Shown: positions 4,831-49,086 of the stretch, in pieces
Numbering within the stretch: position 1 is the first letter of the stretch
Layout of the letters: every line of letters begins with the position of its first letter
Assembly: GCF_964355755.1 (NCBI RefSeq)
Contig: NC_092678.1
Coordinates: 767,922-831,921, forward strand
DNA: 64,000 nt
Direction of reading: 5' to 3'
Source of the DNA: Antedon mediterranea
Taxonomy: Eukaryota; Echinodermata; Crinoidea; Comatulida; Antedonidae
The notes under the pieces: generated by a model
Seen by the model: only the letters and a program-made list of their open reading frames with translations
Database searches by the model: none
What the model was told of the DNA's origin: nothing
Made by a program: the position numbers and the translations under genes

Positions 4831-4920
4831 TCCAAACTTCTGATGATGTCCAGTGAAACATCAAATGGAATCTATAAAGAACATTAATGTAACTATTTGT
4901 TCGAAATGCCAACAAACCCT

Positions 4921-5046
4921 AAAGCAGTCTACACTATTAAACTAGTTTGACAAAAAAAGTGTGATGTGCCCAAATATGGTATTGACATGCCCAAATATGG
5001 TAGTGATATGACCATATATGGGCACATCACATTTTGATAGTGTAGT
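4921..5046. mobile_element. MITE-like foldback, family A
   Basis: Diverged copy of the commonest foldback in the window. One end reads GTCTACACTATTAAACTAG, the other TTTGATAGTGTAG in inverse orientation, and the centre has inverted CCATATATGGGCACATCAC-type words. No internal coding sequence, so non-autonomous. Confidence 0.75.
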
Positions 5047-5572
5047 GTGGTAACTATTAGGCCTACCGATATGTTTGTTCTGGCTTCCTAAATTCACCAT
5101 TAGGAACGTGGCTAATTAACTACCAAATACTAGGTGGTAAGAATGTACTTAAAGATCTTAAGTAGTACTTACTTCCAATCCAGAAGGTTCAACCTTAACG
5201 TTTGTCAACATATTCTGTATATATACCATACACTGCTTCAATTGCGACTGTAAGGACAGTAGTCATTATTAATAGTTTGTGTACCATGTGTTTAAAAAAA
5301 ATAAATATTAATTAAAATTAAATAAAGTAGAGATTGTCTGGACAATTCTGATGCTACAACCATCTTCTGTCTAGCATTACTCCAGATGACGGTTCTAGCA
5401 TACACACACTGCCAACCTCATTTTTTAACAGTGTTTATTCTCAATGTGCAAACAATAACATTGAAAAGACAATGTTAAATTAAAACAATTACCTACCTAT
5501 ATATCTCATCTTGATTGTTTATTTCGTCTTTTGAATCTACGCTAATTATATTGTTTTCATTTCCATAAACTC

Positions 5573-5578
5573 TTTATT
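5573..5578 (-). promoter_or_regulatory. candidate polyadenylation signal of CFAP54
   Basis: AATAAA on the minus strand (TTTATT on plus), about 22 nt after the CFAP54 stop codon. It is the first canonical signal downstream; other AATAAA words occur further on, so actual use is unproven. Confidence 0.4.
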
Positions 5579-5599
5579 ATACCAGAACAAAAACTCAAG

Positions 5600-8500
5600 T
5601 TACTTTACCTCCAAATTTTCATCTCGTTGAACTTTAGCAGACAACTGACTGATGCGCGCTGTTCTTTTGGACTTGCGAGACGACGGTTTGCCCGTACTTG
5701 GTGGCGTAATTGGTTTATCAGCAACTTTCGGCTTGTCTGATAACGACATCTCAGCATTCTGTTTGAGTCCAACAAGTTTCTTGTGAAGAAATGTAAGGTG
5801 TGTGTACTGTAAAACACGCTTTGCACAAGTTTCGTTGGTGGCAGTAGATGACGTTTTTGATGTGTATGTGTAAAGAAGAAGGATGGCGTCATTAGATGAC
5901 GAGGTCAACGCACTTCTGTACCATTGAACACACAGTTGTTTAGCCGACTTCAATGCCGGAATCTTATTGTTATACTTGACCGGTTCCTTGACCGCTGGTG
6001 ATTTCTCTTTCACGTTTCTAATTGGGATGTCCGGTTGAACAGCTGGTTCAATTGGAGCAAGATGCATTTGAGGTGGAGGATAGATAGCACTGCATTCTGA
6101 TGAGTATACTGATAAGTGAGTGTTTAAAAATGAGTGCATATGCTTAAGTCGTAGAGAAGCGGTATCTGCTAATAATGGTAGCCGGACTACATTCCTGCTA
6201 GTGCTAATATCTGCAGCTGTATCTGTTGATATCTCAACATCTGGTACCTTTGTATCTTTAGTCAGTTTCTTGTTGTCTGCTATTTTCTTGTCATCTGCTA
6301 AGCAGTCATTGACGCCCACAGCCGACATACTGCACATACGCTGTAGGATTGACGTATAGCTAATTAGATGTCTCCAGGTCAGTTGAGGTTCTTCCATTTT
6401 AGCATCCCATTTGTAGTCTTCACTCCCTTCAGTCACAGGGTCTAAAACATTCTTGCCGTCCAGGAAGGGACCACGCAAATCATCAAACCCTAAAATAGGT
6501 CATGATTCAATTAGTTTTTACTACTCTATTTATTTATAGTGTGCTTTGAGAAGATTAATTTGGCACAGTTTTAAATATTCTAGGCTCCCGTCAAATCACA
6601 TAATCTCTTCTCAGGGTTTAGTATTTCATTGATTTCCTGTACTTTAAATGATACCTTGTTGCACTGTTATTTTCACATGTCTGTTCTATTTATCAATTGA
6701 ACAAGTTTGACCTTTAACCTTTTTCTATAACATCATACTGTTTCATTAGAGTCTGTTCCGACTTTACAATGGTTGCATGTGGTATCAATTTTTAGATAAA
6801 CCAAATTGATTTCCTGTAGTTTAAATGATGCCTTGTTGTACTGTTTTTTTCTGTTATTATGATATGGCTGTTAAATATTTTGTCGTCAATTGAACAAGTT
6901 TGACCTTTTTCTTAAATTTCATACTGTCATTTAATTAGAGCCTGTTCACACTTTACAATTTACACATGTAATTGTCGCGTGTGGTGTCAATTTTGAGATA
7001 AACCAGCTGTTTCAAAAACTCAACTGATGAGGTGGATTTTTCAATTCATTAAACCGCAACTGATTAACCACAAGATAAGGAGAAATTTGACCTTACTAGT
7101 GTAAAAAGACGCATATAATATGACCTTGCCTGGTAAATTTTGTCATTTTATATGTGTAAATCCTTTTTTGTAGTCCCAACAGTTCGTCTGCTCATGGACG
7201 TATAAAAATTGATACCTCCATGGTCTGCTTAATCCCAAGAGTAATTTAGGTTACACATGTAAGTGCGAACACAGCTTTAGTTAATGAAGTAAATAATACC
7301 TTGTTCTGCTGCCACCATGAGGTCTTCTTTCAAGAAGCCTGGTATGTCATTCTTCACAGCATCCTTAGCAGGGATAGTAGTCAGTGTAGCATCACCAATA
7401 AGAAGAGTGAATCTACGCTGTGCTTTGGCTATCAAGGTAGCAGCACATACAGCCTGCCAAGCCGCGTGCGATTCTTTTGTTCTCTCTCGTTGCCGTTCTC
7501 TCTCAATTGTTTCTTGTTTGTTGACCTTCTTACTTGATTTCTTAGCAGATGAAGATGGCTGTGAAAGTTAACAAAGGAATTACATTTTCAAATAATCTTG
7601 AAAAGCTGACTATGATAATGTCATTGACTTTTCCATTAATTTAGGTCTAAAACATGATGACATTGTGAACTAAAATACACAACAGGATTTACTTGTTCAC
7701 AAAAAGTTTGGAAGAAAAAGGAAGCTTAACCTAAAGCTCTGTCTACACTATAAAACTTTGTGACAAAACAATTTGACATGCCCAAATATGGGCACATCAC
7801 ATTTGTTGTCACATAAAAGTTTGATAGTGTAGACAGAGCTTAATTTTTTATCAAAATTTAGTGTTTTCTGTTTAGATGATTGGAAAAAGAAACATAAAAA
7901 GTATGACAACATTTTGTTTAGTGTAGTTTTAATTTGAAGTCAAAGCGTTGGGTTGAGGATAAGTTGTCTTGTTACCTTAGCTTGTTGTGACACTGTAGTA
8001 GAACCGTCGTCAGGTTCGACAGGCATGCTCAGTATGTTACTTCCCTTCAAATATGCTTTTGCTATCTCAAGATATGCCTCTTTTATCAACCTATACAAAT
8101 GATGAGTTATTTAATGCGTCTTGTTAAAAACTACTATAGGCCTATAAACGTAGTAACATGTACCACAAAAATCCAAGAAAAAACAAGGGGCAGTATACTA
8201 AATGATAAACATCCATTACACCAACATTATGTATGGCTAAGGCGAGGAAAGCGAGTACGTAGCACACTATGTAGAACTAACAGATATCTAAATTCATTCG
8301 TCCCTTTTTCCAAGATATGCTTCTTTTATCAATCTATACAAAAGATGAGTTATTTTACGTTAAAAACATAACTATAGTGTAAATGAATCACACACATTTT
8401 GTTTATTAAGAATCTTTCAATTAACAATATTATGTTAATTCATTTTGCGCATGTAGATGTATTGGGATGTGTTTCTACCTCCACAGCTTGACACAGTTTG

Positions 8501-11500
8501 ATGATTTCTAAATCCAGACAACCACCGATGACACATCGATTGACCTGACCTAGGTAGGTCATTCAACATCGCAAATTCAAAGCTCTTTATTGATTGTATT
8601 AATATTGTTTAAGGGTTTGCTTAGTGAAGTTTTTTTGCGGTACAGCATGTGATTCCGAAAGGAAATTAAATGTGATACTCTCTATTTCTCTGTATCAATG
8701 ATTTGTATGTCACATTAGTCATTAGGTCATGTTTTGTTATAAATTCAATAAAGCAAAATAATCATTAAATTAATAGGTTGAAAGACCTCAATGGTGAAAA
8801 ACAAGAAAGCAAGAACATCCCGTTTTTCCAGTTCAAATTTATTCTTTTATAATTTTTGATTTTAATTAAACCCACATAACCTTAGTCATTAGGTAATTAT
8901 TTGTGACACACTATTAATTTTGATTGTTTGAATTTGTGCTATTTTTGTGACCTACTTTATTAACCATTATTAATCAAAGTACTGAGCGTAGTGGAGGATC
9001 ACTAAAGGTCAACTTAGACGGTGTCGTACAACGAGAAGATTAAATTAAGTTCTTCCGATGACCTAAAAACTACACCCTACGCTATCTCAAGAAAACTCGT
9101 CCAGTCGGGATTCAACTCAGACAGCACCAACAAGTAAAGGCGTTTCGTTGGGCCTTGTGGTACGACGCTGTCCGAGTTGGCCTTTAGTGAGATCACTTAC
9201 TGTAGATCGTGGTTGGAAGTAAAGCTGGTTGAGATGGCTTGGATGAGTGTATCTACAACAGACCTACACGAACAAAATCCACACTTGAACAGTTGTTGTT
9301 CTACTTTACCTGGCAAGAGAAACAATCACAATATCAAGAAGCAAGAATATTTATATTCAGGGAAGGTGTTTATGTTGTTATGTGTAATATGGTAACATGT
9401 ATAATCAAATTAATTCCATCTAAATATGAAAATATTATTAATATCTAGAAGTGATACAGTAGAATTGGTATCAAAATGCTTGGTAAATTGTAGATCATGT
9501 CAATCAATGAATTCTACTACAAATAGGAATGTGTTGTATTCGAGGGGGAATTTATTCAAAGAATTCATTTAAATACATACCAAAGGTAAGCAGTATTTCT
9601 GCTTGTAAGGTTGGGTTTGTACGAACGCACAGTTTGCTGAGAGACAAAGCACTTGCTAACACATCACCACTTAAGCGCCACAGGTTTGAATCTGATTCAT
9701 TTCTATCAAAACAAAAAAAAACAGAATTTTATATTAAGGTTAATCATCTGAGGAAACATAATGTACATTTCTATAAACAATATTTCGTCATGAGGTAATT
9801 TCCCGCATGATCGTAATCAAAACGGTACTGGGTTTGGTCTACTAGCGTTCCTGCTCCAAACTCGTCATCCATTCATAGAAGCCTTAACGAAGTAAGCCTA
9901 CCTGGTGGTGACCATAGAACGGTTCCGAGATAACGACTATACTTCGGCTTTAGTCGATAGAAGATTGAAATATTGTTAGAGATAGAGTATACGATGTTTG
10001 ATTATGTGTAGATGTGTGATTTGTTTTATTATTCAAGTGATGTTCCGCATAAAGAGATGAAGAAAGTAGTTGGTGTTATGGTTTTGCATATCAATTAATT
10101 ATCCTAGACAATATAGGATGCGATAATTATTATTTTATATATATTTTTTCAATATTGATTGTTATGATTATAATAATATTAATAAAAAGATATTTGTTAG
10201 TATAAATTTAAAATACAATGTACAATATACAAAACAATATTTATGATACTAGTCCCCTACCTTAAGCTAGCCTCCCTTGCCAGGCTGTGACCAATCCTCA
10301 TTTTCAGTTTTACCAATAGCAGAATATGTGGTAGGTGAATGTTCTGGAACGGGAAGGCTAGGCTTGATAATGATGGCTGTACGTTATGTATCTCAATACA
10401 CTCTCCAAGAAACTTCATCTGAAAACAAAAAACAATTGAAAACATATTTTGAGGTTTACTGTACAGAACAAAGCTTTTTTTTAATAACCATTTCAATTAA
10501 TAATTAAATACCAGATTGTCAACCAATAAAAGTGAAGGCAACAAGCCTGTTTATACTGTTAAGGCAAATTTACAAAGACGAGCGATAACGGTAAGCAGAA
10601 AACCGTCCCACGTAGAATCTTTATTTTTTAAGAGCTGGTTTCCACTCAACCATCTGCTCCGCATTTTGTGTAAATGTTCATAAGAAATAACATAGATTCT
10701 ATATTGTTATTTTTTGTATACCGTTACTGCTCACCTTTACTGCTAGCCTTTGTAAAATTGGCCTTTCTCTTTTGTAGGACTAAACCGCACCAATTTTTTT
10801 TTCATCAAGGTAAGTATTCACACAACAAAAACACTAACCTGTTGAAGTAGCTTATGTTGCACTGTGCAATAACTCTGCAGTATAGCCTGCACGGCCGACG
10901 ACTTGTTTTCATCTTGTGGGATGACTAAAGCCTCCAAATCAGTTAGATGCGTTCTTGTAAGACACAACAAAAGAGAGGCTTCTGGAGAGAGTGTTTGCAG
11001 GTCATTCAGTAGGTCAATCACCTCCTGTAAATGAGAATGTTATCAAGAAGACAGTGTAAAGGTTATAGAAAGCTCAACAAATATGGCTGAACCAAATCGG
11101 CCAATCGGATACGGAAGTTTGAAGTTATGGTAAAAAAAAATTGTCATTAATACTTTTCATAATTATCAATTTATATACTAATGTATTAAAAAAATTACCT
11201 TCAATGTTTCCTTAACATCTGATAGTGATCGGCCTTCTTGTAGGTCCAAGAGGGCGCCCTGCATCAGAAACTCTGCTTGTAGTTCAATGTCTCCGCATGC
11301 CTCAGCTTCTGTAAGTCCTTGCATACAATGATCTCTGCATTCACTTAATTCCAGTTTGTTACAATCAACATCTAAAAGTAAAAACATATTTCTTACTTTC
11401 ATACTCAATTGGTTCTCAAGCAATCAGTTACACTTCATGGTTTTAAATAATTATAAGACTCTTCCATTAGGTTATTCATGATAAAGAGTTATAATGAATA

Positions 11501-14500
11501 TTGGACAAATTCAAGTAGTCTCTTCTGATTGTATCCTTTTATGTTGGTAATTACGTTAGTGTTCCTTTACGAAAGCACTATTAGTGGATGTTTTGATTTG
11601 ATATTTCATCACAACTTTCCAGGTCAAGAATAGGTATGATCTGCCAAAATGTTTTTCTTTTTTTCAAATATTAGGCCAAATTTAGATAAATTGCTCACCT
11701 GATAAGCGCCCCATACCCTTCACACCAGTCATCAGGTTCTTCACCAGCATCAGCCTGCTATTCAGCCACAGTCTACCATCAAGGCGTGCCCGGCTTTGAG
11801 AGTTCTGGTACTGGAAGTGACTAGACTGGATATCCTCATTGTCTTCATCAAGAGAGTACAAAGATAGTGGTGGTATATGCTGTCGACTACCTTTCATTGA
11901 AGAAGTTCTGTAAAATGAGTGACAGAAAGTTCTGTAAAATGAGTGACAGAAAGTTCTGTAAAATGAGTGACCGAAAGTACTGTAAAATGAGTGACCGAAA
12001 GTTCTGTAAAATGAGTGACAGAAAGTTCTGTAAAATAAATGACATAAAGTTCTGTAAAATTAGTGACAGAAAGTTCTGTAAAATGAGTGACAAAGTTCTG
12101 TAAAATGAGTGACAGAAAGTTCTGAGACCTTAGGATTGGAAGGCTACAGCTTGATAATGATATAATTTACCTGAAAGGTGTGGTTGTCTTCTTTGTAGGT
12201 ATTTCTTTGAAGAGTGAGCTTGATTGTATTGCCAGCATAGCAGAGGCAACTATGGAGGCCGATTTGGATGCTAGTTGATGTTGGCAGTAAATAGAGCCCA
12301 ACTCTAGCTTACCAAGAAGTACTAACTCTAATTCAGATGCATGTAGACATTCCGCACCTAAACATAATATTCATTTTCATTATGAGTAATTGCTTTTTGA
12401 TGAATGTCTAGTAAAAACAATTTATAAAAAAAACTGATAATAATAATAATTTGATCCTAATTAATATAGATAACAATAAAGTATTTTGTAAACCTTTTTC
12501 TTCCATGCAGTCTACCAGGATGTGGAGAAATCTCTCAGCAGTACTCAATAGTACTCCCTGTGAAACATAAAAAAACAACAGATTGTGGTATAACCACAGT
12601 GACGTTACGCAGGAGGCATAGGCCCCTAGGTAGTTGCATTGGGGCTGCTCATGCTCTGGGGCCCCTAGGTAGTTGCATTGGGGCTGCTCATGCTCTGGGG
12701 CCCCTAGGTAGTTGCATTGGGGCTGCTCATGCTCTGGGGCCCCTAGGTAGTTGCATTGGGGCTGCTCATGCTCTGGGGCCCCTAGGTAGTTGCATTGGGG
12801 CTGCTCATGCTCTGGGGCCCCTAGGTAGTTGCATTGGGGCTGCTCATGCTCTGGGGCCCCTAGGTAGTTGCATTGGGGCTGCTCATGCTCTGGGGCCCCT
12901 AGGTAGTTGCATTGGGGCTGCTCATGCTCTGGGGCCCCTAGGTAGTTGCATTGGGGCTGCTCATGCTCTGGGCCCCTAGGTAGTTGCATTGGGGCTGCTC
13001 ATGCTCTGGGGCCCCTAGGTAGTTGCATTGGGGCTGCTCATGCTCTGGGGCCCCTAGGTAGTTGCATTGGGGCTGCTCATGCTCTGGGCCCCTAGGTAGT
13101 TGCATTGGGGCTGCTCATGCTCTGGGGCCCCTAGGTAGTTGCATTGGGGCTGCTCATGCTCTGGGGCCCCCCTAGGTAGTTGCATTGGGGCTGCTCATGC
13201 TCTGGGGCCCCTAGGTAGTTGCATTGGGGCTGCTCATGCTCTGGGCCCCTAGGTAGTTGCATTGGGGCTGCTCATGCTCTGGGGCCCCTAGGTAGTTGCA
13301 TTGGGGCTGCTCATGCTCTGGGCCCCTAGGTAGTTGCATTGGGGCTGCTCATGCTCTGGGGCCCCTAGGTAGTTGCATTGGGGCTGCTCATGCTCTGGGC
13401 CCCTAGGTAGTTGCATTGGGGCTGCTCATGCTCTGGGGCCCCTAGGTAGTTGCATTGGGGCTGCTCATGCTCTGGGCCCCTAGGTAGTTGCATTGGGGCT
13501 GCTCATGCTCTGGGCCCCTAGGTAGTTGCATTGGGGCTGCTCATGCTCTGGGGCCCCTAGGTAGTTGCATTGGGGCTGCTCATGCTCTGGGGCCCCTAGG
13601 TAGTTGCATTGGGGCTGCTCATGCTCTGGGCCCCTAGGTAGTTGCATTGGGGCTGCTCATGCTCTGGGCCCCTAGGTAGTTGCATTGGGGCTGCTCATGC
13701 TCTGGGGCCCCTAGGTAGTTGCATTGGGGCTGCTCATGCTCTGGGGCCCCTAGGTAGTTGCATTGGGGCTGCTCATGCTCTGGGGCCCCTAGGTAGTTGC
13801 ATTGGGGCTGCTCATGCTCTGGGGCCCCTAGGTAGTTGCATTGGGGCTGCTCATGCTCTGGGCCCCTAGGTAGTTGCATTGGGGCTGCTCATGCTCTGGG
13901 GCCCCTAGGTAGTTGCATTGGGGCTGCTCATGCTCTGGGGCCCCCCTAGGTAGTTGCATTGGGGCTGCTCATGCTCTGGGGCCCCTAGGTAGTTGCATTG
14001 GGGCTGCTCATGCTCTGGGCCCCTAGGTAGTTGCATTGGGGCTGCTCATGCTCTGGGGCCCCTAGGTAGTTGCATTGGGGCTGCTCATGCTCTGGGCCCC
14101 TAGGTAGTTGCATTGGGGCTGCTCATGCTCTGGGGCCCCTAGGTAGTTGCATTGGGGCTGCTCATGCTCTGGGCCCCTAGGTAGTTGCATTGGGGCTGCT
14201 CATGCTCTGGGGCCCCTAGGTAGTTGCATTGGGGCTGCTCATGCTCTGGGCCCCTAGGTAGTTGCATTGGGGCTGCTCATGCTCTGGGGCCCCTAGGTAG
14301 TTGCATTGGGGCTGCTCATGCTCTGGGGCCCCTAGGTAGTTGCATTGGGGCTGCTCATGCTCTGGGGCCCCTAGGTAGTTGCATTGGGGCTGCTCATGCT
14401 CTGGGCCCCTAGGTAGTTGCATTGGGGCTGCTCATGCTCTGGGCCCCTAGGTAGTTGCATTGGGGCTGCTCATGCTCTGGGGCCCCTAGGTAGTTGCATT

Positions 14501-38500: not shown

Positions 38501-41500
38501 CTTAGTGTATCCAACAATGCTAAGAACTGGGCTGCACTGCCCTCAAACATGTCCGATAACAGTTTCTCAACTGGTGTTCTAGGCCATGGAAGCTGAAAGT
38601 AAATAGTCAAAATTATTAGTATTTTGGCGGTAAACATTTCATTGTTGAAAAGTTTCATTAATTATGGATTAATGGATTAAACACAGTTAAATTTCATGTA
38701 CGCTATGTGCTTCAAGAGAGAAGTAAAGTTAGATTGAGAAATGTTATTATTGAAATATAACAGTACTTTATCACATTTTTTAAAATAAAAAACCTAAATA
38801 TTAAATTAAACTACTGTTGGTGTTCTGTTTTATAGACAGAAATAAAATAATGAAGGTGGAATAAGAAAAAAATCTTTAGTTTAAAGTTAAAAACACAAAA
38901 ATGAAGACGGTGCTGCCTGTTAAAAAAATGAACATTTAGTTACATTTTAGTTACATTTTATAGAAGTTTATATAGTGTGTTTATTCACAAATCATCAAAG
39001 AATTAACATATAGAATGAGCTGGACTAAATGTTAGGTACATAATACCTATGCTGATGTTAAGAATAGCTGAATTAGTGACAGTTTAACAGAATTATTCAC
39101 CAAATGTTATATTAATATTAGTTCCCATAATGAAAGAAAGGTGCATAATGATCGAAAGCTCTAAAGAAGTAAATTTCACATTTAAACAAATTCTAACTTA
39201 TACAATTCTGTAGAGAGGTTAATAGTAGAATGTTTAAATTGTTAGAATGGTGATAAGTACGATGCACTCATGTGTGACATTACTCACTGATCCCGGTTTT
39301 TTGTAAAGGTCGTCTAGTCTTTGTTTAGACGTTTTATGCCAAATTAATCTACCATCGCTTGCTACTAACGTCATCACACGCACTTCCGTTGGCTAAATAA
39401 TCGCATTTGTTGCAAAGACAAAATTTTAAGTATAAAAACTCACCAGTTAAAAAGCTCATGTATTACAAAAAAAATAATTATTGGCAAAAATAAAACCCTT
39501 GAATGTAAAATATATATATAAAATGAAAATGATTATGCTTGAAAATCGTTTAATAAGCAAATCCTAATATATACTGTATGATACCATGCATGTAAGGTTG
39601 TTAATTTAGCAAATTTATTAATAAAAATAATTTTAATATTTATTTTAATCATGTAACACAAAAAGCTGAACTAATATTCCATATTTGGAAGTGAATACCA
39701 GTAAATATTTATACAACAATATTTACAATTCAATAGTGAACATTGTTAATTAGCAAAGTAATATTAATGCGAGCTTTGGTTTTGGGACGACAGACGGTAT
39801 TTAAACAGACTCTGACGGTTATGGAATGTCAGACAGATACTTGTTCAACTTGTCACAATCCGCATTTCTTCGTTTACAACCCTAAAAAATAAGCTTGTTA
39901 ATATCAACATGGACGATTTGATGATGTCATCATTGTGGCGTATTTACCGACTGGGCATCTTTTATGTTACTCCTGGTCTTTGGCCGTAGAAGTCCTTTGG
40001 GTCTTTTACGAGTATCAAACACTGTTCGTTTGTACACCATTATACCAAGCTGAAATAAATCAAAAACATCTATGTACAAAGGTTGGTAAGAGAAGATGAT
40101 GACGAGGACCTAATAAAATGTTGATAGATGCAGTGAGTGAGGACACCTAAAGGCCAGACAGCGAGAGAAGGTTGTACATGTTTTCCCGACGACCTAAAAA
40201 CTATGCCTGACACAAGATACAACAACATCGTTGTACAACGCTGTCTGAGTTGGCCTTAAGAGTCAAGAGGATCTAATAAAATGTTAATGGATGTAATAAG
40301 TGAGGACGTTCAGAATGAAGGGATAGACAAGTAAGCTAAATGAAGGGATAGACAAGTAGGCTAAATGAAGGGATAGACAAGTAGGCTAAATGAACGGATA
40401 GACAAGTAGGCTAAATGAAGGGATAAACAAGTAGGCTAAATAAAGGGATAAACAAGTAGGCTAAATGAAGGGATAGACAAGTAGGCTAAATGGAGGGATA
40501 GACAAGTAGGCTAAATGAAGGGATAGACAAGTAGGCTAAATGAAGGGATAGACAAGTAGGCTAAATGAAGGGATAGACAAGTAGGCTAAATGAAGGGATA
40601 GACAAGTGGGCTAAATGAAGGGATAGACAAGTAGGCTAAATGAAGGGATAGACAAGTGGGCTAAATGAAGGGATAGACAAGTAGGCTAAATGAAGGGATA
40701 GACAAGTAGGCTAAATGAAGGGATAGACAAGTAGGCTAAATGAAGGGATAGACAAGTAGGCTAAATGAATGGATAGACAAGTAGGCTAAATGAAGGGATA
40801 GACAAGTAGGCTAAATGAAGGGATAGACAAGTAGGCTAAATGGAGGGATAGACAAGTAGGCTAAATGAAGGGATAGACAAGTAGGCTAAATGGAGGGATA
40901 GACAAGTAGGCTAAATGAAGGGATAAACAAGTAGGCTAAATGGAGGGATAGACAAGTAGGCTAAATGAAGGGATAGACAAGTAGGCTAAATGAAGGGATA
41001 GACAAGTAGGCTAAATGGAGGGATAGACAAGTAGGCTAAATGGAGGGATAGACAAGTAGGCTAAATGGAGGGATAGACAAGTAGGCTAAATGGAGGGATA
41101 GTCAAGTAGGCTAAATGAAGGGATAGACAAGTAGGCTAAATGAAGGGATAGACAAGTAGGCTAAATGAAGGGATAGACAAGTGGGCTAAATGAAGGGATA
41201 GACAAGTAGGCTAAATGAAGGGATAGACAAGTAGGCTAAATGAAGGGATAGACAAGTAGGCTAAATGGAGGGATAGACAAGTAGGCTAAATGGAGGGATA
41301 GACAAGTAGGCTAAATGGAGGGATAGTCAAGTAGGCTAAATGAAGGGATAGACAAGTAGGCTAAATGAAGGGATAGACAAGTAGGCTAAATGAAGGGATA
41401 GACAAGTAGGCTAAATGAAGGGATAGACAAGTAGGCTAAATGGAAGGATAGACAAGTAGGCTAAATGAAGGGATAGACAAGTGGGCTAAATGAAGGGATA

Positions 41501-44500
41501 GACAAGTAGGCTAAATGAAGGGATAGACAAGTAGGCTAAATGGAAGGATAGACAAGTAGGCTAAATGAAGGGATAGACAAGTGGGCTAAATGAAGGGATA
41601 GACAAGTAGGCTAAATGAAGGGATAGACAAGTGGGCTAAATGAAGGGATAGACAAGTAGGCTAAATGGAGGGATAGACAAGTAGGCTAAATGGAGGGATA
41701 GACAAGTAGGCTAAATGGAGGGATAGACAAGTAGGCTAAATGGAAGGATAGACAAGTAGGCTAAATGAAGGGATAGACAAGTGGGCTAAATGAAGGGATA
41801 GACAAGTAGGCTAAATGGAAGGATAGACAAGTAGGCTAAATGGAGGGATAGACAAGTAGGCTAAATGAAGGGATAGACAAGTAGGCTAAATGAAGGGATA
41901 GACAAGTAGGCTAAATGAAGGGATAGACAAGTGGGCTAAATGAAGGGATAGACAAGTAGGCTAAATGAAGGGATAGACAAGTAGGCTAAATGAATGGATA
42001 GACAAGTGGGCTAAATGGAGGGATAGACAAGTAGGCTAAATGAAGGGATAGACAAGTAGGCTAAATGGAGGGATAGACAAGTAGGCTAAATGGAGGGATA
42101 GACAAGTAGGCTAAATGAAGGGATAGACAAGTAGGCTAAATGGAAGGATAGACAAGTAGGCTAAATGGAGGGATAGACAAGTAGGCTAAATGAAGGGATA
42201 GACAAGTAGGCTAAATGAAGGGATAGACAAGTGGGCTAAATGAAGGGATAGACAAGTAGGCTAAATGGAAGGATAGACAAGTAGGCTAAATGAAGGGATA
42301 GACAAGTAGGCTAAATGGAAGGATAGACAAGTAGGCTAAATGGAGGGATAGACAAGTAGGCTAAATGAAGGGATAGACAAGTAGGCTAAATGAAGGGATA
42401 GACAAGTGGGCTAAATGAAGGGATAGACAAGTAGGCTAAATGAAGGGATAGACAAGTAGGCTAAATGAATGGATAGACAAGTGGGCTAAATGGAGGGATA
42501 GACAAGTAGGCTAAATGAAGGGATAGACAAGTAGGCTAAATGGAGGGATAGACAAGTAGGCTAAATGAAGGGATAGACAAGTAGGCTAAATGGAGGGATA
42601 GACAAGTAGGCTAAATGGAGGGATAGACAAGTAGGCTAAATGGAGGGATAGACAAGTAGGCTAAATGAAGGGATAGACAAGTAGGCTAAATGGAGGGATA
42701 GACAAGTAGGCTAAATGGAGGGATAGACAAGTAGGCTAAATGGAGGGATAGACAAGTAGGCTAAATGGAGGGATAGACAAGTAGGCTAAATGAAGGGATA
42801 GACAAGTAGGCTAAATGGAGGGATAGTCAAGTAGGCTAAATGGAGGGATAGACAAGTAGGCTAAATGGAGGGATAGACAAGTAGGCTAAATGAAGGGATA
42901 GACAAGTAGGCTAAATGGAGGGATAGACAAGTAGGCTAAATGGAGGGATAGACAAGTAGGCTAAATGGAGGGATAGACAAGTAGGCTAAATGAAGGGATA
43001 AACAAGTAGGCTAAATGGAGGGATAGTCAAGTAGGCTAAATGGAGGGATAGACAAGTAGGCTAAATGGAGGGATAGACAAGTAGGCTAAATGGAGGGATA
43101 GACAAGTAGGCTAAATGGAGGGATAGACAAGTAGGCTAAATGGAGGGATAGACAAGTAGGCTAAATGGAGGGATAGACAAGTAGGCTAAATGAAGGGATA
43201 AACAAGTAGGCTAAATGGAGGGATAGACAAGTAGGCTAAATGAAGGGATAGACAAGTAGGCTAAATGAAGGGATAGACAAGTAGGCTAAATGAAGGGATA
43301 GACAAGTAGGCTAAATGGAGGGATAGACAAGTAGGCTAAATGAAGGGATAGACAAGTAGGCTAAATGGAGGGATAGACAAGTAGGCTAAATGAAGGGATA
43401 GACAAGTAGGCTAAATGGAAGGATAGACAAGTAGGCTAAATGAAGGGATAGACAAGTAGGCTAAATGAAGGGATAGACAAGTAGGCTAAATGAAGGGATA
43501 GACAAGTAGGCTAAATGAAGGGATAGACAAGTGGGCTAAATGAAGGGATAGACAAGTGGGCTAAATGAATGGATAGACAAGTAGGCTAAATGAAGGGATA
43601 GACAAGTAGGCTAAATGAAGGGATAGACAAGTAGGCTAAATGAAGGGATAGACAAGTAGGCTAAATGAAGGGATAGACAAGTGGGCTAAATGAAGGGATA
43701 GACAAGTAGGCTAAATGGAGGGATAGACAAGTAGGCTAAATGAAGGGATAAACAAGTAGGCTAAATGAAGGGATAGACAAGTAGGCTAAATGAAGGGATA
43801 GACAAGTAGGCTAAATGAAGGGATAGACAAGTGGGCTAAATGAAGGGATAGACAAGTAGGCTAAATGAAGGGATAGACAAGTAGGCTAAATGAAGGGATA
43901 GACAAGTAGGCTAAATGGAGGGATAGACAAGTAGGCTAAATGAAGGGATAGACAAGTAGGCTAAATGAAGGGATAGACAAGTAGGCTAAATGGAGGGATA
44001 GACAAGTAGGCTAAATGGAGGGATAGTCAAGTAGGCTAAATGAAGGGATAGACAAGTAGGCTAAATGAAGGGATAGACAAGTAGGCTAAATGAAGGGATA
44101 GACAAGTGGGCTAAATGAAGGGATAGACAAGTAGGCTAAATGAAGGGATAGACAAGTAGGCTAAATGAAGGGATAGACAAGTAGGCTAAATGAAGGGATA
44201 GACAAGTAGGCTAAATGAAGGGATAGACAAGTAGGCTAAATGAAGGGATAGACAAGTGGGCTAAATGAAGGGATAGACAAGTAGGCTAAATGAAGGGATA
44301 GACAAGTAGGCTAAATGAAGGGATAGACAAGTAGGCTAAATGAAGGGATAGACAAGTGGGCTAAATGAAGGGATAGACAAGTAGGCTAAATGAAGGGATA
44401 GACAAGTAGGCTAAATGAAGGGATAGACAAGTAGGCTAAATGGAGGGATAGACAAGTAGGCTAAATGAAGGGATACACAAGTGGGCTAAATGAAGGGATA

Positions 44501-45691
44501 GACAAGTAGGCTAAATGGAAGGATAGACAAGTAGGCTAAATGGAGGGATAGACAAGTAGGCTAAATGGAGGGATAGACAAGTAGGCTAAATGGAGGGATA
44601 GACAAGTAGGCTAAATGGAGGGATAGACAAGTAGGCTAAATGGAGGGATAGACAAGTGGGCTAAATGAAGGGATAGACAAGTGGGCTAAATGAAGGGATA
44701 GACAAGTAGGCTAAATGAAGGGATAGACAAGTAGGCTAAATGAAGGGATAGACAAGTGGGCTAAATGAAGGGATAGACAAGTAGGCTAAATGAAGGGATA
44801 GACAAGTAGGCTAAATGAAGGGATAGACAAGTAGGCTAAATGGAGGGATAGACAAGTAGGCTAAATGAAGGGATACACAAGTGGGCTAAATGAAGGGATA
44901 GACAAGTAGGCTAAATGGAAGGATAGACAAGTAGGCTAAATGGAGGGATAGACAAGTAGGCTAAATGGAGGGATAGACAAGTAGGCTAAATGGAGGGATA
45001 GACAAGTAGGCTAAATGGAAGGATAGACAAGTAGGCTAAATGAAGGGATAGACAAGTGGGCTAAATGAAGGGATAGACAAGTAGGCTAAATGGAGGGATA
45101 GACAAGTAGGCTAAATGGAAGGATAGACAAGTAGGCTAAATGGAGGGATAGACAAGTAGGCTAAATGGAGGGATAGACAAGTAGGCTAAATGGAGGGATA
45201 GACAAGTAGGCTAAATGGAAGGATAGACAAGTAGGCTAAATGAAGGGATAGACAAGTAGGCTAAATGAAGGGATAGACAAGTAGGCTAAATGGAGGGATA
45301 GACAAGTAGGCTAAATGGAGGGATACACAAGTAGGCTAAACGAAGGGATAGACAAGTAGGCTAAATGAAATCACTGTGTTCCGTCACAAGTATAATACCA
45401 GAAACAAGTCAAAGTTCTCAAACATTTATTTGTTTATTTGTACAAAAATGCTTACCTTGACAGCAGCTTGTCTGAAGATATCCTCAATCTGCGGGCTACA
45501 CGCTGCTGAGCTGATCTTTTCCAATTGACTCAAGTCATTCACCTTTGATAGAGCACGTCTAGCAAAGCTCTGTCAATACCAAACATATAAATAGTAATAC
45601 AGTTAAACAGAAGGGACTATATTATGACAATAACTAGTGGTGTTTGTTTGTTGTTTGTGTTTGTTCTTGTATGTAAGATTGATTAAATCAA

Positions 45692-45754
<63 letters not shown>

Positions 45755-48700
45755 GTGATGATGACGATGATGATGATATGTGTATGTTTGTGATAATGAT
45801 CTGATGATGTATTATGAACTTAAAGAGAAATAAATATTACTTTTGGCTTGACTTTGACTGTGAACCAATTATAAAGAAAATGTTTTACTCTCAGTACAGT
45901 GTTTACCTCAGCTTCAGGCCCAGCTTTGCAGTCATAATAACACTGGCACACAGCAGTGTACAGGGTTGACCTCCAAGGCAGGTATCTGACTGCTAACAAG
46001 GGTACTGAGTTCTCCATACACATACAAGCCCACAACAGGTACTCCAACACCTACAACATAACAAATATGTTAATATATAACACCTAAATAATTTCATGTC
46101 CTTTGATTGGACGATTGTGGGTCACATGGCATGCAATAGTATCATATTTTAACAGTTCTTAACATTACAATTTGTATTTCATACTCCTTAGGATCTACGC
46201 ATTGTGCATATCTCATGTTTAGCTTAAAGAATAGGAATTTTTCGATTTGAGATGGCCTAGGATCTACACATTGTTCTATGGATCATGACATAGAATCCTC
46301 TGAGTGTATCCACATGCGCACAATATGATTCCTAGGTCATCAAAAGTAGCTTCTTAATGCTTTACCTTAGAGGAATGGCCTAGAGTCATCATGTGTCTTG
46401 AAACACTGTAAATATGGATAGTACCTGAAAGACAGGTAATATTAATACAACTTATTACCTCTTTCATATCAACTAGAAAAACTCCAAAGACATGTCATGG
46501 GTGTTTTCCGAGTGATCTTACCCACTATTGATCTTATGATCACTTGGGAAAAAGCTCACGATGTTATACAGATATCTGAACAGTAAATATTAATACAACC
46601 TAATTTACTTATTTCAGATGAAAAACATAACAAATGCATCAAATTAATCAGTATACCATAGTTACAGAAACTACAGACAGACAGACGTTTATTTCATTCT
46701 GTCTGTTATTTCAGCAGGTTGGTAATAGCACTGTGTCTTGGTAGTTGATATGCTTGCTTACAAATCCCAGGGTCTTCATTCTGTCCGTTATTTCAGCAGG
46801 TTGGTATTAGCACTGTGTCTTGGTAGTTGATATGCTTGCTTACAAATCTTTGTTATTAAGTCTTTGGTTCAAATTCTGTCAAAGTTCCAGGATTTTTCTG
46901 ACAGTCGACAATACACAGGTTTAGAAAGCATGGATTTCTCATATCATAATTGATCATGACGTGAGTTGGATGGTATTCAAGATTTTTTAAATAAGCAAGA
47001 ATTTAATAAGTTTGTTTTACTTAATTATTAACTTACCATTGTACACTAACCAACAAAGCGTTTCTCTGTTGAGAACAATTTGAGTAATGAGACGAAGAAA
47101 GGCGAGAAGTTTGAGACATTTGCTCACAGATTCTGTGTTTTGCAGCTTAGAATCAGATTGTAACACTAACTGGTAGTTGCAGATGCTTTTACCATACAGA
47201 GCACGAAACTAAAACATAGCCAGATAAAACAAAGTATGACAACAATTTAATCTTACTTAAGTCATCAACAGATATGGTTAAACTTTATTCCTTCCTTCAC
47301 AGGGAATTCACAAGTTCAAGAATATAATAATGATGAAATGAGAAACATTAAAAATTTAAGAAAGAAAAACATCAAACAGATTATCTATGAAAATGTTCAT
47401 AATAATATCGTATCCAAGTAGGAATAAAAAGGGTGTTCTTTCTTTACGCAGCATAGTTTATTTAATTTTAGTCTGGTAATGATATTTGGAATTTGTCATT
47501 AACCCTTGACATTTGATTCCTATCCTGTAAAATCACATCACGTATTATTTGGGACCTTTTGCAAAACCTACGATTATGACTACCCATTGATACATTGTGT
47601 CAAACCTGTGTCAAGGGTCAAGGAATCCTAATGACCTCCAGACAGTAAATATAAGGCTCCACATTTATCAAGTTGAATATAATGTTTATTGAATGGATGC
47701 GAGACTATGGTATCCTTACAGTTAAACTTGCATGATCAGTTTCCAAACCATCTGGAAAGAAGATGTGTTTGACAGATTTGATATCAACTATATCTTCAAT
47801 ATGTTGATCTCCAAACTCATCTAGATATTGACCATAACACTGCCAAACAGCCAGGTTGTACTCCTGAAATATTTTATTTGAACCATATTTAATTAGGGTG
47901 ACCCATCCAGCAATTGCTGATCATTTGGGACCCTCAGTCTACAGTGGTTTAATGCACAGGGCAAAGGCCCCTGCTTTAGCACTCCTAAAGGGGCCCTTCG
48001 ACGCTGGGTAGTTGCATTGAACTGCTCATACTCTTGGCCCCTATAAGCTCCGAGGGCCCTGGGTTTAGTCAGTGAGTAATATGTATTATAAATCTATGTG
48101 TACATTCAACTCTAGTCTCCCAATAATGTAAACACTTGGTTGGGCATAATAGGTGTGGTTTCACAGACATTCTGATAATCTAGTAGTATGTTATTACTAA
48201 TGGTAAACCAGACCTTTGGGTTTTGAGAGAGTTTCCAGAGAGTCCAGTATTTGGGAGGAGAAGACTGTATGAAGTTATATACATTAGTACATCATCAGCA
48301 GAGGCCTACGTAACTTAGTACTTACTTTAATTGAAACAAGAAAATCACCCATTTCAATTAGTTTTTGCTGGTATAAAACTTTTGGCAGTCGACCTTCAAA
48401 TGAGTTCCACAATTTGAATAGTGAATCAGACCTTTTATGTACAAAAGAAATTGTTTAAACATTTATATGAATGGCCAGTGCCATTCCTTTTTAACGCCAC
48501 AGTCAAAAACTCATGCCTCCTATTCCTAATCCTATCTATAATGTCAGCCTACGCCTACCATAGGTAGAGGCATTAATTGAGTTGCAATTAAGTAGGGCTT
48601 GCCTAAATAGACTTGTTTATTAATATCCTAGCTAGTAGGCTAGGGCCTATGCCTAGGCCTATTCATTATTTATTATTAATAATAATAATACTAGGCCTAG

Positions 48701-49086
48701 GCTAGGCCTAATATTTAAAAGCTAGGCCTAGGCCTAGGTTGAGATTATTTATTTAGGCCTAGTTTTAGAGATTATTTACATATTTTGTTATTAAATAAGG
48801 AGGTCAAAAAATATTTATTTTTGCGAGATTTCAGCTAGGCTTAGGCCTATCGTACTCGCATAAAACCACAGGGGAAGAATCAATCTCACCCGCGAGACGT
48901 TGATTGAGCCTCGGCCTTCCGTCCATGTTTGGTCTTTCCCACAGACGATGTTTTTCTTATTAATTGTCGGAAAAGTTTAGATTCTTCGTTGAATGCATTA
49001 ATCACGGGGTTAGATTTACTATCATAGAAGTTAGATGTTGGTAGTTTTTGGGTAAGAACAGCTTTATGCTGTAAGGTTGCAGACAT
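5600..49086 (-). CDS. CFAP54: cilia- and flagella-associated protein 54
   Basis: Orthologue of CFAP54/FAP54, a very large structural protein of the C1d projection of the central-pair apparatus in motile cilia. FAP54 works there with FAP46, FAP74 and FAP221, and mouse mutants have ciliary and sperm motility defects. I traced 57 coding exons (coordinates in the six block entries). All borders are GT/AG, phases agree at every junction, and the sum is 9,768 nt, an exact multiple of three, giving 3,255 residues (human about 3,100). Identity rests on the N-terminal family region (EYNLAVWQCYGQYLDEFGDQ; GTIHIYSVSRHMMTLG; CMENSVPLLAVRYL), a helical-repeat-rich body, a fibronectin-III-like segment near residues 955-1046 and a basic C-terminus. 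Introns hold two kilobase-scale minisatellites and several amplified splice junctions. The stop is preceded by GAG-GTAAAG, a potential donor, so an extra 3' exon is not excluded. Confidence 0.95.
6631..6990. repeat. diverged tandem duplication, about 180 bp, intron 56
   Basis: Two diverged direct copies share TTGATTTCCTGTA, TTTAAATGAT, CAATTGAACAAGTTTGACCT, a TTAGAG-CTGTTC block and TTTACAAT, in the same order. Old duplication within the last CFAP54 intron. Confidence 0.65.
7732..7843. mobile_element. MITE-like foldback, family A (short form)
   Basis: Compact copy with well-preserved ends: TAAAGCTCTGTCTACACTAT at left and its inverse at right (TTTGATAGTGTAGACAGAGC). The centre is a single ATATGGGCACATCAC arm. 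Inserted in CFAP54 intron 55. Confidence 0.87.
8305..8350 (-). other. decayed extra copy of the exon 55 acceptor region
   Basis: On the minus strand ACTCATCTTTTGTATAG is followed by ATTGATAAAAGAAGCATATC. This closely matches the real exon 55 acceptor and first codons (ending at 8090: TTTGTATAG then GTTGATAAAAGAGGCATATC). It sits about 230 bp upstream in the transcript and is followed by unrelated sequence, so it is a partial, probably non-functional exon-start copy. Confidence 0.7.
8996..9195. mobile_element. MITE-like foldback, family D
   Basis: Inverted ends: left TCACTAAAGGTCAACTTAGA and GGTGTCGTAC; right GTACGACGCTGTCC and GAGTTGGCCTTTAGTGA. No coding content. The right end lies within about 10 nt of the donor of CFAP54 exon 54, so the element starts almost at the intron's first base. 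A second copy is near 40.14-40.26 kb. Confidence 0.8.
9387..9572. repeat. dispersed repeat H, copy 1
   Basis: Shares ordered blocks with 35,985-36,290: ATGGTAACAT-TATAAT, ATGCTTGGTAAATTGTAGAT, AATTCTACTACAAATAG, TGTGTTGT and TTTATTCAAA. The end abuts the donor of CFAP54 exon 53 within about 10 nt. Type unknown; no coding sequence. Confidence 0.65.
10559..10772. mobile_element. MITE-like foldback, family C
   Basis: Left end GGCAAATTTACAAAG then ATAACGGTAAGCAG; right end inverse (CTGCTCACC, CTTTGTAAAATTGGCC). An inner AGAATCTTTATTT / AACATAGATTCTA pair gives a second, nested inverted match. Lies in CFAP54 intron 51. Confidence 0.7.
11905..12124 (-). repeat. 24-bp minisatellite of amplified 3' splice sites (exon 49)
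   Basis: Nine tandem copies plus a partial. On the minus strand each carries CACTCATTTTACAG followed by AAC, i.e. a complete acceptor. The copy nearest the exon (AG at 11909-11908) is the acceptor that continues the CFAP54 frame. Copies 3-4 have a GACC variant, copy 6 ATAAATGACATAA, copy 7 ATTAGTG (adds an in-frame stop on the minus strand) and copy 8 is 2 nt short. Confidence 0.93.
12622..16513. repeat. 39-bp minisatellite, about 100 copies
   Basis: Fills nearly all of CFAP54 intron 46. The unit contains CCCCTAGGTAGTTGCATTGG then CTGCTCATGCTCTGGGG. Length variants of 38 bp (one G fewer) and 41 bp (two extra C) mix with the 39-bp form, often alternately. Two interior units (near 15,800 and 15,960) and the terminal one (16,500) carry GGGTTTAGCCA instead of the CTAGGTAGTTG part. 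Both strands show long open frames only because 39 is divisible by three; not coding. Confidence 0.97.
17541..17700 (+). mobile_element. tRNA-headed SINE-like repeat (tentative)
   Basis: Has a box-B-like GGGTTCAAGTC after a GTGGCTTGTGGTTATGATGA stretch resembling a box A region, followed by AACTCCACTCTTATAGACAG, similar to the body of the 37.44-kb element (CAACTCCACTCTCTAAGAC). Lies in CFAP54 intron 43. No cloverleaf or anticodon arm could be formed. Confidence 0.5.
18762..19338 (+). mobile_element. SINE-like composite element with ACCTCC...GGCGGAGGT tail
   Basis: Begins ACTAGAGGGTACTCCGAGAG and ACCTCCGCCTACTGTAAAAT. It has a tRNA-like part (GTGTGGTGTAATGGTTATGT ... GCTGGTTCAAGTCCC), then repeated TGACCTTGACC-type words, an (AC)n stretch and the end ACCTCCTTGGCGGAGGTAAT. 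A diverged copy is at 53,127-53,808. The self-complementary 3' tail resembles a widespread marine-invertebrate SINE end; a conserved-core (Nin-type) SINE is possible but unverified. Confidence 0.75.
20310..20402. mobile_element. family A foldback, partial
   Basis: Retains the centre (TGTGATGTGCCCAAATATGG, CCATATATGGGAACATCACA) and one degenerate end (TAGTGTAGATACAG). The other terminal inverted repeat is lost. Confidence 0.65.
21576..21740. repeat. 76-bp tandem repeat, 2+ copies
   Basis: GAGGTTACCCAGTGTATTAG starts near 21,576 and 21,652, with a third partial at 21,728. Each unit ends ACAACAGTCTTTGACTGAA. The upstream ACATCTTTCGAGATG links it to the SINE-like body at 23.6 kb and 18.5 kb. Confidence 0.85.
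23507..23725 (+). mobile_element. tRNA-derived SINE-like element
   Basis: The head TTGCCGAGCGATTAAGGCAG matches a tRNA (Leu/Ser type) box A region and is followed about 50 nt later by AGGTTCAAGTCA (box B). The body (TTCTGGTGGAAGAACA, GTCTTCTCGGATAA, AAAGAACCTAGTACATCTTT) recurs at 18.39-18.53, 21.54 and 29.51 kb. In CFAP54 intron 32, plus strand, opposite to the gene. Not a functional tRNA: arms do not pair. Confidence 0.75.
24276..24451. repeat. 60-64-bp tandem repeat, 3 copies
   Basis: TGATCATTAAAATCAACCGA recurs at 24,281, 24,341 and 24,405, each followed by AAGGTGTCTGGTATTGGGAG. In CFAP54 intron 31. Confidence 0.88.
24458..24530 (-). mobile_element. retroposon 3'-tail-like fragment (tentative)
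   Basis: ATAATAATACTG-TTCAATTTATATAGCAC followed by AAGCGCTG is, on the minus strand, the GCGCT...TATATAAAT...(TTA)n tail also seen at 59.2 kb. A similar scrap is at 26,448-26,490. Only the tail is recognisable. Confidence 0.4.
26081..26225. mobile_element. MITE-like foldback, family B
   Basis: Left end ATACTTGGTTCTCA, right end TAGTGGAAACCAAGCAT (inverse), with inner GTTGACCAATGACAAG and ATTGGTCAACTC arms. Same family as 31,580-31,720. In CFAP54 intron 28. Confidence 0.75.
26784..26917. mobile_element. MITE-like foldback, family A
   Basis: Near full-length: TAAAGCTCTGTCTACACTAT at left, GATAGTATAGACAAAGCTTA at right; inner TGTGATGTGCC / GGGCACATCACA arms flank ATATGGACATGATGATGTCA. In CFAP54 intron 27. 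Confidence 0.9.
27348..28094 (-). repeat. 37-bp minisatellite of amplified 5' splice sites (exon 26)
   Basis: About 20 tandem copies. On the minus strand each unit ends CATGCATACAAAGAAG then GTAAGCA, a near-consensus donor. The first copy is partly exonic: the last 30 nt of CFAP54 exon 26 plus 7 intron bases are the unit. A C/G variant (TTGCAAG/TTGGAAG), a CATGT/CATAT variant and one unit with an extra T (near 27,500) allow phasing. The unit length is not divisible by three. On plus, all three frames lack stops over the array; not coding. Confidence 0.96.
28426..28468. mobile_element. minimal family A foldback (ends only)
   Basis: Only about 43 bp: AAGCACTGTCTACACTATCA joined almost directly to AGTGTAGACAGAGCTCT. 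The two terminal inverted repeats remain with the interior deleted. Confidence 0.75.
28922..29075. mobile_element. family A foldback, diverged
   Basis: Left TAAAGCTTTGTCTAAA, right AGTGTAAACCGAGCTTAAG. Centre has CCATATATGGACAAGATGAT and a duplicated ATATCATTACCATATTTAGG. Ends about 7 nt from the CFAP54 exon 24 donor (29,082). Confidence 0.75.
29323..29513. repeat. about 47-bp tandem repeat, 4 copies
   Basis: ACAATATCAGCATCGGCAGG repeats with GGCCGACTCACTCCTAGTTC. Followed by the SINE-like body (GAACAAGTCTTCTC), so it is an internal expansion of a SINE head in CFAP54 intron 23. Confidence 0.88.
29668..29890 (-). repeat. about 79-bp triplication of the exon 23 donor
   Basis: ACTTACCTGTATAAC (minus strand: end of exon 23, CAG, then GTAAGT) occurs at 29,668, 29,747 and 29,826, each with the preceding exon-like sequence (minus: GGTGCTA inverse, ATACCCTCTGTACC). 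Only the 29,826 copy is attached to the rest of exon 23. Confidence 0.9.
30089..30221. mobile_element. MITE-like foldback, family A
   Basis: Left TAAAGCTCTGTCTACACTAT, right GATAGTGTAGACAGAGTCTA, centre ATATGGACATGATGTCAAAT. In CFAP54 intron 22. Confidence 0.9.
31580..31720. mobile_element. MITE-like foldback, family B
   Basis: Left AACTTGGTTCTCACTAGGAC, right GTCCTAGTTGGAAACAAGCT, near-perfect inverted ends of roughly 40 bp. Inner TTGACCAATCACAAG / CTTGTCATTGGTCA arms. In CFAP54 intron 19. Confidence 0.85.
31915..32035 (-). repeat. 42-bp triplication of the exon 19 acceptor
   Basis: AATAAGGAGTACCAACCAAC then CTACAAAAAAA recurs at 31,921, 31,963 and 32,005. On the minus strand each copy is a T-rich tract, TTGTAG, then GTTGGTTGGTACTCC, the first codons of exon 19 (VGWYS). 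The copy at 31,940 joins the rest of the exon. Use of an upstream copy would read an in-frame TAG. Confidence 0.92.
33532..33664. mobile_element. family A foldback, diverged right end
   Basis: Left TAAAGCTCTCACTACACTAT and CAAACTAGTTTGACA; centre ATGACATCATCATATCCATA; right end reduced to ACATAAGGTTTGACAG. In CFAP54 intron 15. Confidence 0.75.
33710..33765 (-). pseudogene. decayed partial copy of CFAP54 exon 16
   Basis: The minus strand reads ISLYTTTILIQGSMKQS, against SLYTATILVQGAREQL in true exon 16. Hand alignment of 48 nt gives 35 identical bases. It lies inside intron 15, about 250 bp upstream of the real exon in the transcript, and ends at AGTATGT. It looks like an old tandem duplication. 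An alternative exon is less likely because the flanking frame has stops. Confidence 0.65.
34234..34382. mobile_element. MITE-like foldback, family A (best copy)
   Basis: Left TTAAGCTCTGTCTACACTAT, right ATAGTGTAGACAGAGCTTAA, perfectly inverse. Interior TGTGATGTGCCCATATATGG, ATGATGATGTCATATCACTA and ATATTTGGGCACATCACA. TTAA at both ends suggests a TA or TTAA target. In CFAP54 intron 14. Confidence 0.93.
35279..35757. repeat. 24-bp minisatellite, about 20 copies
   Basis: Unit AAAGCTCTATTAAATGATAA plus GAGT (GAAT in the first copy and two near the end; GAAAAGAG once). Both strands are open through the array because 24 is divisible by three. Followed by a GAGCTCGCTTCGCTCGCTCC palindrome-like stretch. 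In CFAP54 intron 12; no splice site is embedded. Confidence 0.95.
35985..36290. repeat. dispersed repeat H, copy 2, with G14 run
   Basis: Longer relative of 9,387-9,572 (AATGCTTGGTAAATTGTAGA, GAATTCTACTACAAATAG). Contains an uninterrupted run of about 14 G near 36,211-36,224 and repeated GTTTATT-GA words. In CFAP54 intron 12. Confidence 0.65.
37095..37200. mobile_element. family A foldback, partial
   Basis: Centre TGTGATGTGCCCTGCATATA / ATATTTGGGCAC with the right end TTAGTGTAGATAGAGGTTA. It ends directly at the donor of CFAP54 exon 12 (GT at 37202-37201). Confidence 0.7.
37440..37620 (+). mobile_element. tRNA-headed SINE-like element
   Basis: GCTGTAGCTTGGTGGTTAAC (box A-like) and CCGGGGTTCAATCCTGACC (box B) spaced as in a tRNA, then CAACTCCACTCTCTAAGACT. 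Opposite-strand relatives at 55.51-55.57 and 55.69-55.75 kb share GGATTGGAAGGCAAGCATG. In CFAP54 intron 11. Confidence 0.72.
40141..40262. mobile_element. MITE-like foldback, family D, copy 2
   Basis: CCTAAAGGCCAGACAGCG at left and CGCTGTCTGAGTTGGCCTTA at right, inner GACGACCTAAAAACTA shared with the 9.0-kb copy (GATGACCTAAAAACTA). Confidence 0.75.
40316..45370. repeat. 25-bp minisatellite, about 200 copies, with higher-order structure
   Basis: Fills most of CFAP54 intron 7. Unit GGATAGACAAGTAGGCTAAA plus TGAAG, with a small set of recurring variants: TGGAG, TGGAA or TGAAT; GTGGGC for GTAGGC; GATAAACAA, GATAGTCAA or GATACACAA. Rare variants recur at exact unit multiples (GATACACAA at 44,473 and 44,873, 400 bp; GATAGTCAA at 41,099 and 41,324, 225 bp; TGAATGG with GTGGGC at 41,991 and 42,466, 475 bp), so blocks of units were duplicated. 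No indels seen in the core. No open frames. Confidence 0.97.
45691..45778. repeat. (ATG)n microsatellite
   Basis: About 28 trinucleotides with a few interruptions (GGTGATG, GACGATG) in CFAP54 intron 6. Confidence 0.95.
46690..46895 (+). repeat. duplicated SINE-like head
   Basis: GCACTGTGTCTTGGTAGTTG and ATATGCTTGCTTACAAATC occur twice about 86 bp apart, with TTATTTCAGCAGGTTGGTA before each. The second is followed by TTGGTTCAAATTCTG (box B-like). Tandem duplication of a tRNA-like head in CFAP54 intron 4. Confidence 0.65.
47957..48080. repeat. single-copy relative of the 39-bp minisatellite
   Basis: Contains GGGTAGTTGCATTGAACTGC, TCATACTCTTGGCCCCTA and GGGCCCTGGGTTTAGTCAGT. These are the same words, in the same order, as the 12.6-16.5-kb array and its terminal unit, but not repeated. 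Upstream it has AAAGGCCCCTGCTTTAGCAC. Probably a non-expanded copy of the dispersed element from which the array grew. In CFAP54 intron 2. Confidence 0.75.

Follow-up and report, generated by a model that had tools for sequence, protein, structure and literature searches.

Tandem arrays across splice junctions of CFAP54, dynein and myosin genes in Antedon mediterranea are about as frequent as chance predicts

Several exon borders of the CFAP54 gene of Antedon mediterranea lie within tandem repeats, which raises the question of whether such repeats form preferentially at splice junctions or simply fall there. The gene is found in the window, the whole stretch of 64,000 nucleotides analysed here, which is part of contig C9 of a genome of 354 Mb in 18 contigs. 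An earlier note on this DNA had placed four borders (donors of exons 23 and 26, acceptors of exons 19 and 49) within repeats whose units span the border, and TRF together with a reading of the minus strand agrees, with four CFAP54 arrays having units that cross predicted exon borders. The exon numbers used below are those of our gene finder and differ from that earlier numbering. The features of the gene are:

4014..49068, minus strand: CFAP54 gene, 71 predicted exons of which at least five are array copies; 49068 is not necessarily the 5' start
27347..28088, minus strand: 37-bp x 20.0 array over donor 28058 of exon 28150-28058 (TRF, gene finder, exon homology)
29666..29892, minus strand: 79-bp x 2.9 array over donor 29832 of exon 29987-29832 (TRF, gene finder, homology)
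31914..32040, minus strand: 42-bp x 3.0 array over acceptor 31940 of exon 31940-31848 (TRF, gene finder, homology)
11903..12124, minus strand: 24-bp x 9.3 array reaching 5 bases into exon 11907-11699 (TRF, gene finder, exon homology)
4014..4846, minus strand: 122-bp x 6.8 array of the terminal coding exon (TRF, gene finder, weak C-terminal match)
8311..8355, minus strand: decayed acceptor copy of exon 8090-7976, 42 of 45 bases identical
21799..21819, minus strand: decayed copy of donor 21877, a 21-column aligned core with one mismatch and one gap

The exons were predicted with a purpose-written spliced gene finder with a fixed intron cost, and nine exon-sized pieces match Pfam CFAP54_N on the minus strand. 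A query made of exons 22-26, 28-31 and 35, omitting the doubtful exon 27 and the array copies called as exons 32-34, aligned over positions 2-481 with residues 879-1353 of the solved chain 9ijj_H (E 1.3e-97), exons 58-61 aligned over query positions 7-217 with residues 2307-2498 (E 3.9e-15), and exons 68-69 gave a weak match to the C-terminus of the chain (E 0.022). Ab initio gene finders may call array copies exons, as happened in CFAP54, and this should be taken as a warning. The adjacent gene at 756-3224 on the minus strand is a predicted multi-pass transporter, which, judged by eye, we take to be of the monocarboxylate transporter kind.

The unit of the 37-bp array consists of 31 exon and 6 intron bases and the array holds 20 donor copies, 19 of which score 7.6 nats and one 6.3, where the median of 550 predicted donors is 5.3. 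The 79-bp unit includes 61 exon bases and supplies three donor copies to an exon that encodes QCYGLLAPIIHYKIPSVPVIQ, and the 42-bp array has three acceptor copies in front of an exon encoding VGWYSLFGCTSAG... There are nine acceptor-like copies in the 24-bp array at 11907; the start of its exon falls in a poorly aligned stretch of the 9ijj_H comparison and this acceptor is therefore supported mainly by the splice model. All four arrays lie inside the range of 5600-49086 originally given for the phenomenon, which leaves out the terminal-exon array at 4014-4846, where the first copy is coding and ends with a stop and the remaining copies lie past that stop. The decayed extra acceptor formerly assigned to exon 55 was recovered and belongs to exon 8090-7976; a decayed partial copy said to lie at exon 16 was not identified, and what we did find is a decayed donor copy next to the exon that ends at 21877.

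For comparison 27 pieces of 10 kb were taken from the same genome, 18 with dynein and 9 with myosin genes, all picked by Pfam match with their repeats still unseen. The dynein pieces represent 18 of 19 loci, one of two similar copies on C1 being omitted, and the myosin pieces come from seven loci with 65 of 334 candidates scored. Piece L004 contains 2,559 N. Gene models are partly ab initio, with paralogue support for 264 of 385 dynein exons and 53 of 144 myosin exons. Five additional junction arrays were found in these pieces:

L001: 31 bp x 8, donor array
L003: 77 bp x 2.8, acceptor array
L003: 50 bp x 10, donor array
L017: 138 bp x 2, donor array
L023: 150 bp x 3, acceptor array

With the last acceptor copy taken as its start, the L023 exon aligns with myosin-Ic (E 8e-13 for a whole query of exons 8, 9 as re-read and 11, with exon 10 omitted). 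CFAP54 is thus not special, and junction arrays are not confined to it.

The comparison of repeats with exon borders that the earlier note had proposed was run on CFAP54 and the 27 pieces, with predicted exons and a random null. Only strong arrays were considered (TRF score of at least 100, unit of at least 20, at least 1.85 copies), the dispersed 21-bp element being excluded throughout and the terminal-exon array at 4014-4846 being excluded from the placement count as well. Each array was collapsed to one unit and placed at random within its own locus, wholly exonic placements not being allowed; collapsing was restricted to strong arrays since collapsing weak in-exon repeats broke the frame in L002. 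Expected values are ranges, with the low end counting supported junctions only and the high end all predicted junctions. The script returned 4 of 13, 4 of 19 and 2 of 13 arrays at junctions in CFAP54, dynein and myosin respectively, against 3.0, 5.9 and 2.9 expected. The final counts of four, four and one were settled by reading, which removed the terminal-exon array, brought in the array at 11907 and removed an array in L027 that is wholly intronic.

Junction arrays occur about as often as chance predicts. Of the 44 strong arrays in all loci nine cross a junction, where 8.0-11.3 are expected (P(>=9) 0.40-0.85); an excess is not confirmed in CFAP54 with its 4 of 12 against 2.3-2.5 (P 0.18-0.23), and there is none outside it, where 5 of 32 compare with 5.7-8.8 (dynein 4 of 19 against 4.2-5.9, myosin 1 of 13 against 1.5-2.9). 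The one-sided 95% upper limit for nine arrays is 15.7, so that enrichment above about 2-fold can be excluded under the stricter null and above about 1.4-fold under the other. In the distance profile, which also omits the array at 11907 and a 393-bp unit, unit coverage is 1.45% in deep intron, 0.7-0.8% within 30 bases of a junction and 0.01% in deep exon, without a peak at junctions. A preference for junctions, which the earlier note had asserted over random minisatellites, is therefore not supported. On reading, no strong array lies wholly within an internal coding exon, where about 7.8 of 44 would be expected under free placement; the single "inside" exon row of the script is the array at 11907, mis-sorted through collapsing, and weaker sub-threshold repeats do occur inside exons (L002, L005, CFAP54).

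The same data bear on the idea that mutation is directed at junctions, with co-transcriptional R-loops or slippage at the pyrimidine tract duplicating DNA preferentially at splice sites, as had been proposed for this gene. Its appeal lies in the four junction arrays within one gene and in the modest surplus over expectation there, yet the 27 other pieces have no surplus and coverage does not rise at junctions. Five of the nine junction arrays are donor arrays, which require no pyrimidine tract, the remaining four being acceptor arrays, and the nine units vary evenly in how much of them is exonic, from 0.21 to 0.96 (KS P 0.76, shares entered by hand). Decayed copies with a score of at least 34 are not commoner at junctions either, being found at 6 of 712 junctions (3 of 356 donors, 3 of 356 acceptors) and at 5 of 144 intron points, for which the stretches searched were longer (278 against 215 bases). 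Among the five control hits one belongs to a residual array (L018) and another to the 21-bp element (L010), and removing both leaves 3 of 142; at a lower score of 24 the counts are 4 of 356 donors, 9 of 356 acceptors and 6 of 144 controls. With no excess to account for, targeting of this kind is not needed and we regard it as unlikely.

The explanation that we favour, and consider quite probable, is that these are ordinary tandem duplications from end joining and slippage that fall on exon borders by chance and are tolerated through exon-proximal splicing. End joining of staggered breaks would most likely produce the first duplication, which slippage or unequal exchange would later expand. Duplication of an exon end together with the intron start would give the order exon-E-I-E-I, and the spliceosome would stay with the copy adjoining the exon body, i.e. 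the first donor or the last acceptor, so that the extra copies would then fall within the intron and the mRNA would be unchanged. Junction duplications would in this way be near-neutral, unlike duplications within coding exons, and being tolerated they should be as frequent as random placement of units in exon-dense genes makes them; that the arrays do occur at chance frequency is probably because splicing at the exon-adjoining copy leaves the mRNA unchanged. Tolerance of junction duplications may be incomplete, as coverage at junctions is about half of that in deep intron.

Reading frames support the suggestion, already made in the earlier note, that the repeats are tolerated since no site but the exon-proximal one preserves the frame. 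Of the nine arrays eight were read (five donor and three acceptor), the array at 11907 giving no reading, and in these eight distal copies yield a stop or a frameshift; for the 77-bp array of L003, whose acceptor came out in a wrong phase, the frameshift follows from the unit length, as 77 is not divisible by 3. As judged from these predicted frames, productive use of several copies is argued against, and since the arrays persist and their distal copies break the frame, the exon-proximal site is presumably the one used. The weakest point is that several host introns were short before expansion (71, 109, 137 and 188 nt, compared with 247-933 nt with the arrays), because under intron definition the intron-proximal site would be preferred, and with it a broken frame. 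In nine of nine cases the present host intron exceeds in length the exon that adjoins the array (at 11907, 263 nt against 209), and as an array grows and its intron becomes longer, exon-proximal choice may itself be stabilised. Exon-defined minigenes with introns of 365 nt, in which two identical donors stood 52 nt apart, are reported to use the upstream donor exclusively (PMC9225289). That exon-centric proximity rule resembles our case in that duplicated identical donors compete and the exon-proximal one wins under exon definition; it differs in concerning two sites in a minigene, whereas the natural arrays here have 2-20 predicted sites.

The frames also weigh on whether the copied sites are under selection, either as regulated alternative sites or as intronic decoys that bind U1. 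A strong site is retained in nearly all copies and human IFI6 is reported to employ repeat units as alternative donors (PMC4526556), but near-identity is expected from recent expansion, distal use leads to stops or frameshifts in the eight arrays read and there is no excess that needs explaining; we think selection on the copies very unlikely. The IFI6 gene (6-16, G1P3) has a minisatellite that bears splice donors (Turri et al. 1995, as cited in PMC4526556), and in the junction arrays, too, the repeat units contain the splice site at the predicted exon border. The IFI6 repeat is one of tandem units that supply donors, as here, with the difference that downstream units of IFI6 are reported to serve as donors for several mRNA species whereas distal use in our arrays would break the frame.

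A published route by which repeats create introns, in which an exonic segment with AGGT is duplicated in tandem and a new intron results (PMC4974935, PMC10809524), might be thought to apply as AG followed by GT is present within several units. However, in nine of nine cases the host intron has its second splice site outside the array and in none of nine do both sites come from the unit, and the introns at two dynein arrays have positions and phases common to paralogous dynein loci, so that these two junctions predate their arrays. For the L001 intron there was no exact match in the dynein paralogue alignment and the junction of the 77-bp array of L003 was not found in it. We hold intron creation to be highly improbable. 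The introns within tandem repeats of the UBC type, with their dual-specific splice sites (PMC10809524), are similar to the present arrays in that splice sites recur at the period of the array, and differ in that there one AGGT plays both roles, as donor and as acceptor, and the length of the intron is a multiple of the repeat unit, where here a single site is in the array. Human segmental duplications contain internal tandem repeats with an average unit of 30 bp, some at exon-intron boundaries (PMC2812944), and minisatellites at such boundaries are thus common to both; the emphasis of that study is on new introns and on alternative splicing among recent paralogues, whereas at least two introns here predate their arrays.

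That the borders are misplaced and the arrays plain intronic minisatellites is extremely improbable, for although a purpose-written gene finder predicted the borders, residues borne by the units align with solved CFAP54 and with myosin, three of four dynein junctions align with paralogues, the fourth being absent from that alignment, and weak support is limited to the border at 11907.

Returning to duplication by end joining and slippage, one array preserves a possible trace of its origin. At both copy junctions of the 77-bp array of L003 (gene-strand 6515-6729) there is a 16-base telomeric filler, AACCCTAACCCTAACC, observed in this one array only; four contig starts were examined, and C3 begins with CCCTAA repeats. 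Both observations are consistent with break repair, and the filler AACCCTAACCCTAACC suggests that at a break either telomerase was active or a telomere was captured. A literature search on telomeric filler gave no paper; tandem duplications are reported to arise through end joining (PMC5730883).

Kindred human cases are already published and the arrays of CFAP54, dynein and myosin are a further example. They suggest that seemingly targeted splice-site repeats need only random duplication and tolerance, and they offer natural tests of splice-site choice among 2-20 near-identical adjacent sites. Among the open-licence matches listed, none dealt with whether arrays that span junctions are neutral. 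More tentatively, as a possibility that we would not rate as even, tandem duplication at junctions may be near selectively neutral here, even where a single intron holds up to 20 near-identical strong donors. In that case, how frequent arrays are at junctions relative to deep intron would be a genome-wide, RNA-free measure of how strict exon-proximal choice is, and such arrays should be missing from genomes relying on intron definition.

CFAP54 also has two very large intronic minisatellites, at 40314-45369 (25 bp x 202) and 12621-16508 (39 bp x 100), which together make up ~9 kb. A dispersed element, short and containing 21-bp repeats of the TGCCCAAATATGGTAGTGACA type, is present at 4967-5021 and 28989-29032, and period-21 repeats, matched by period and without comparing letters individually, are present in 11 of 18 dynein pieces. 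Finally, the region of C3 from 19.6 to 25.1 Mb has at least 19 myosin-head matches to profile positions 342-408 and at least 12 to 563-641, with similar scores; strung along 5.5 Mb, they look like a regional expansion of myosin genes.
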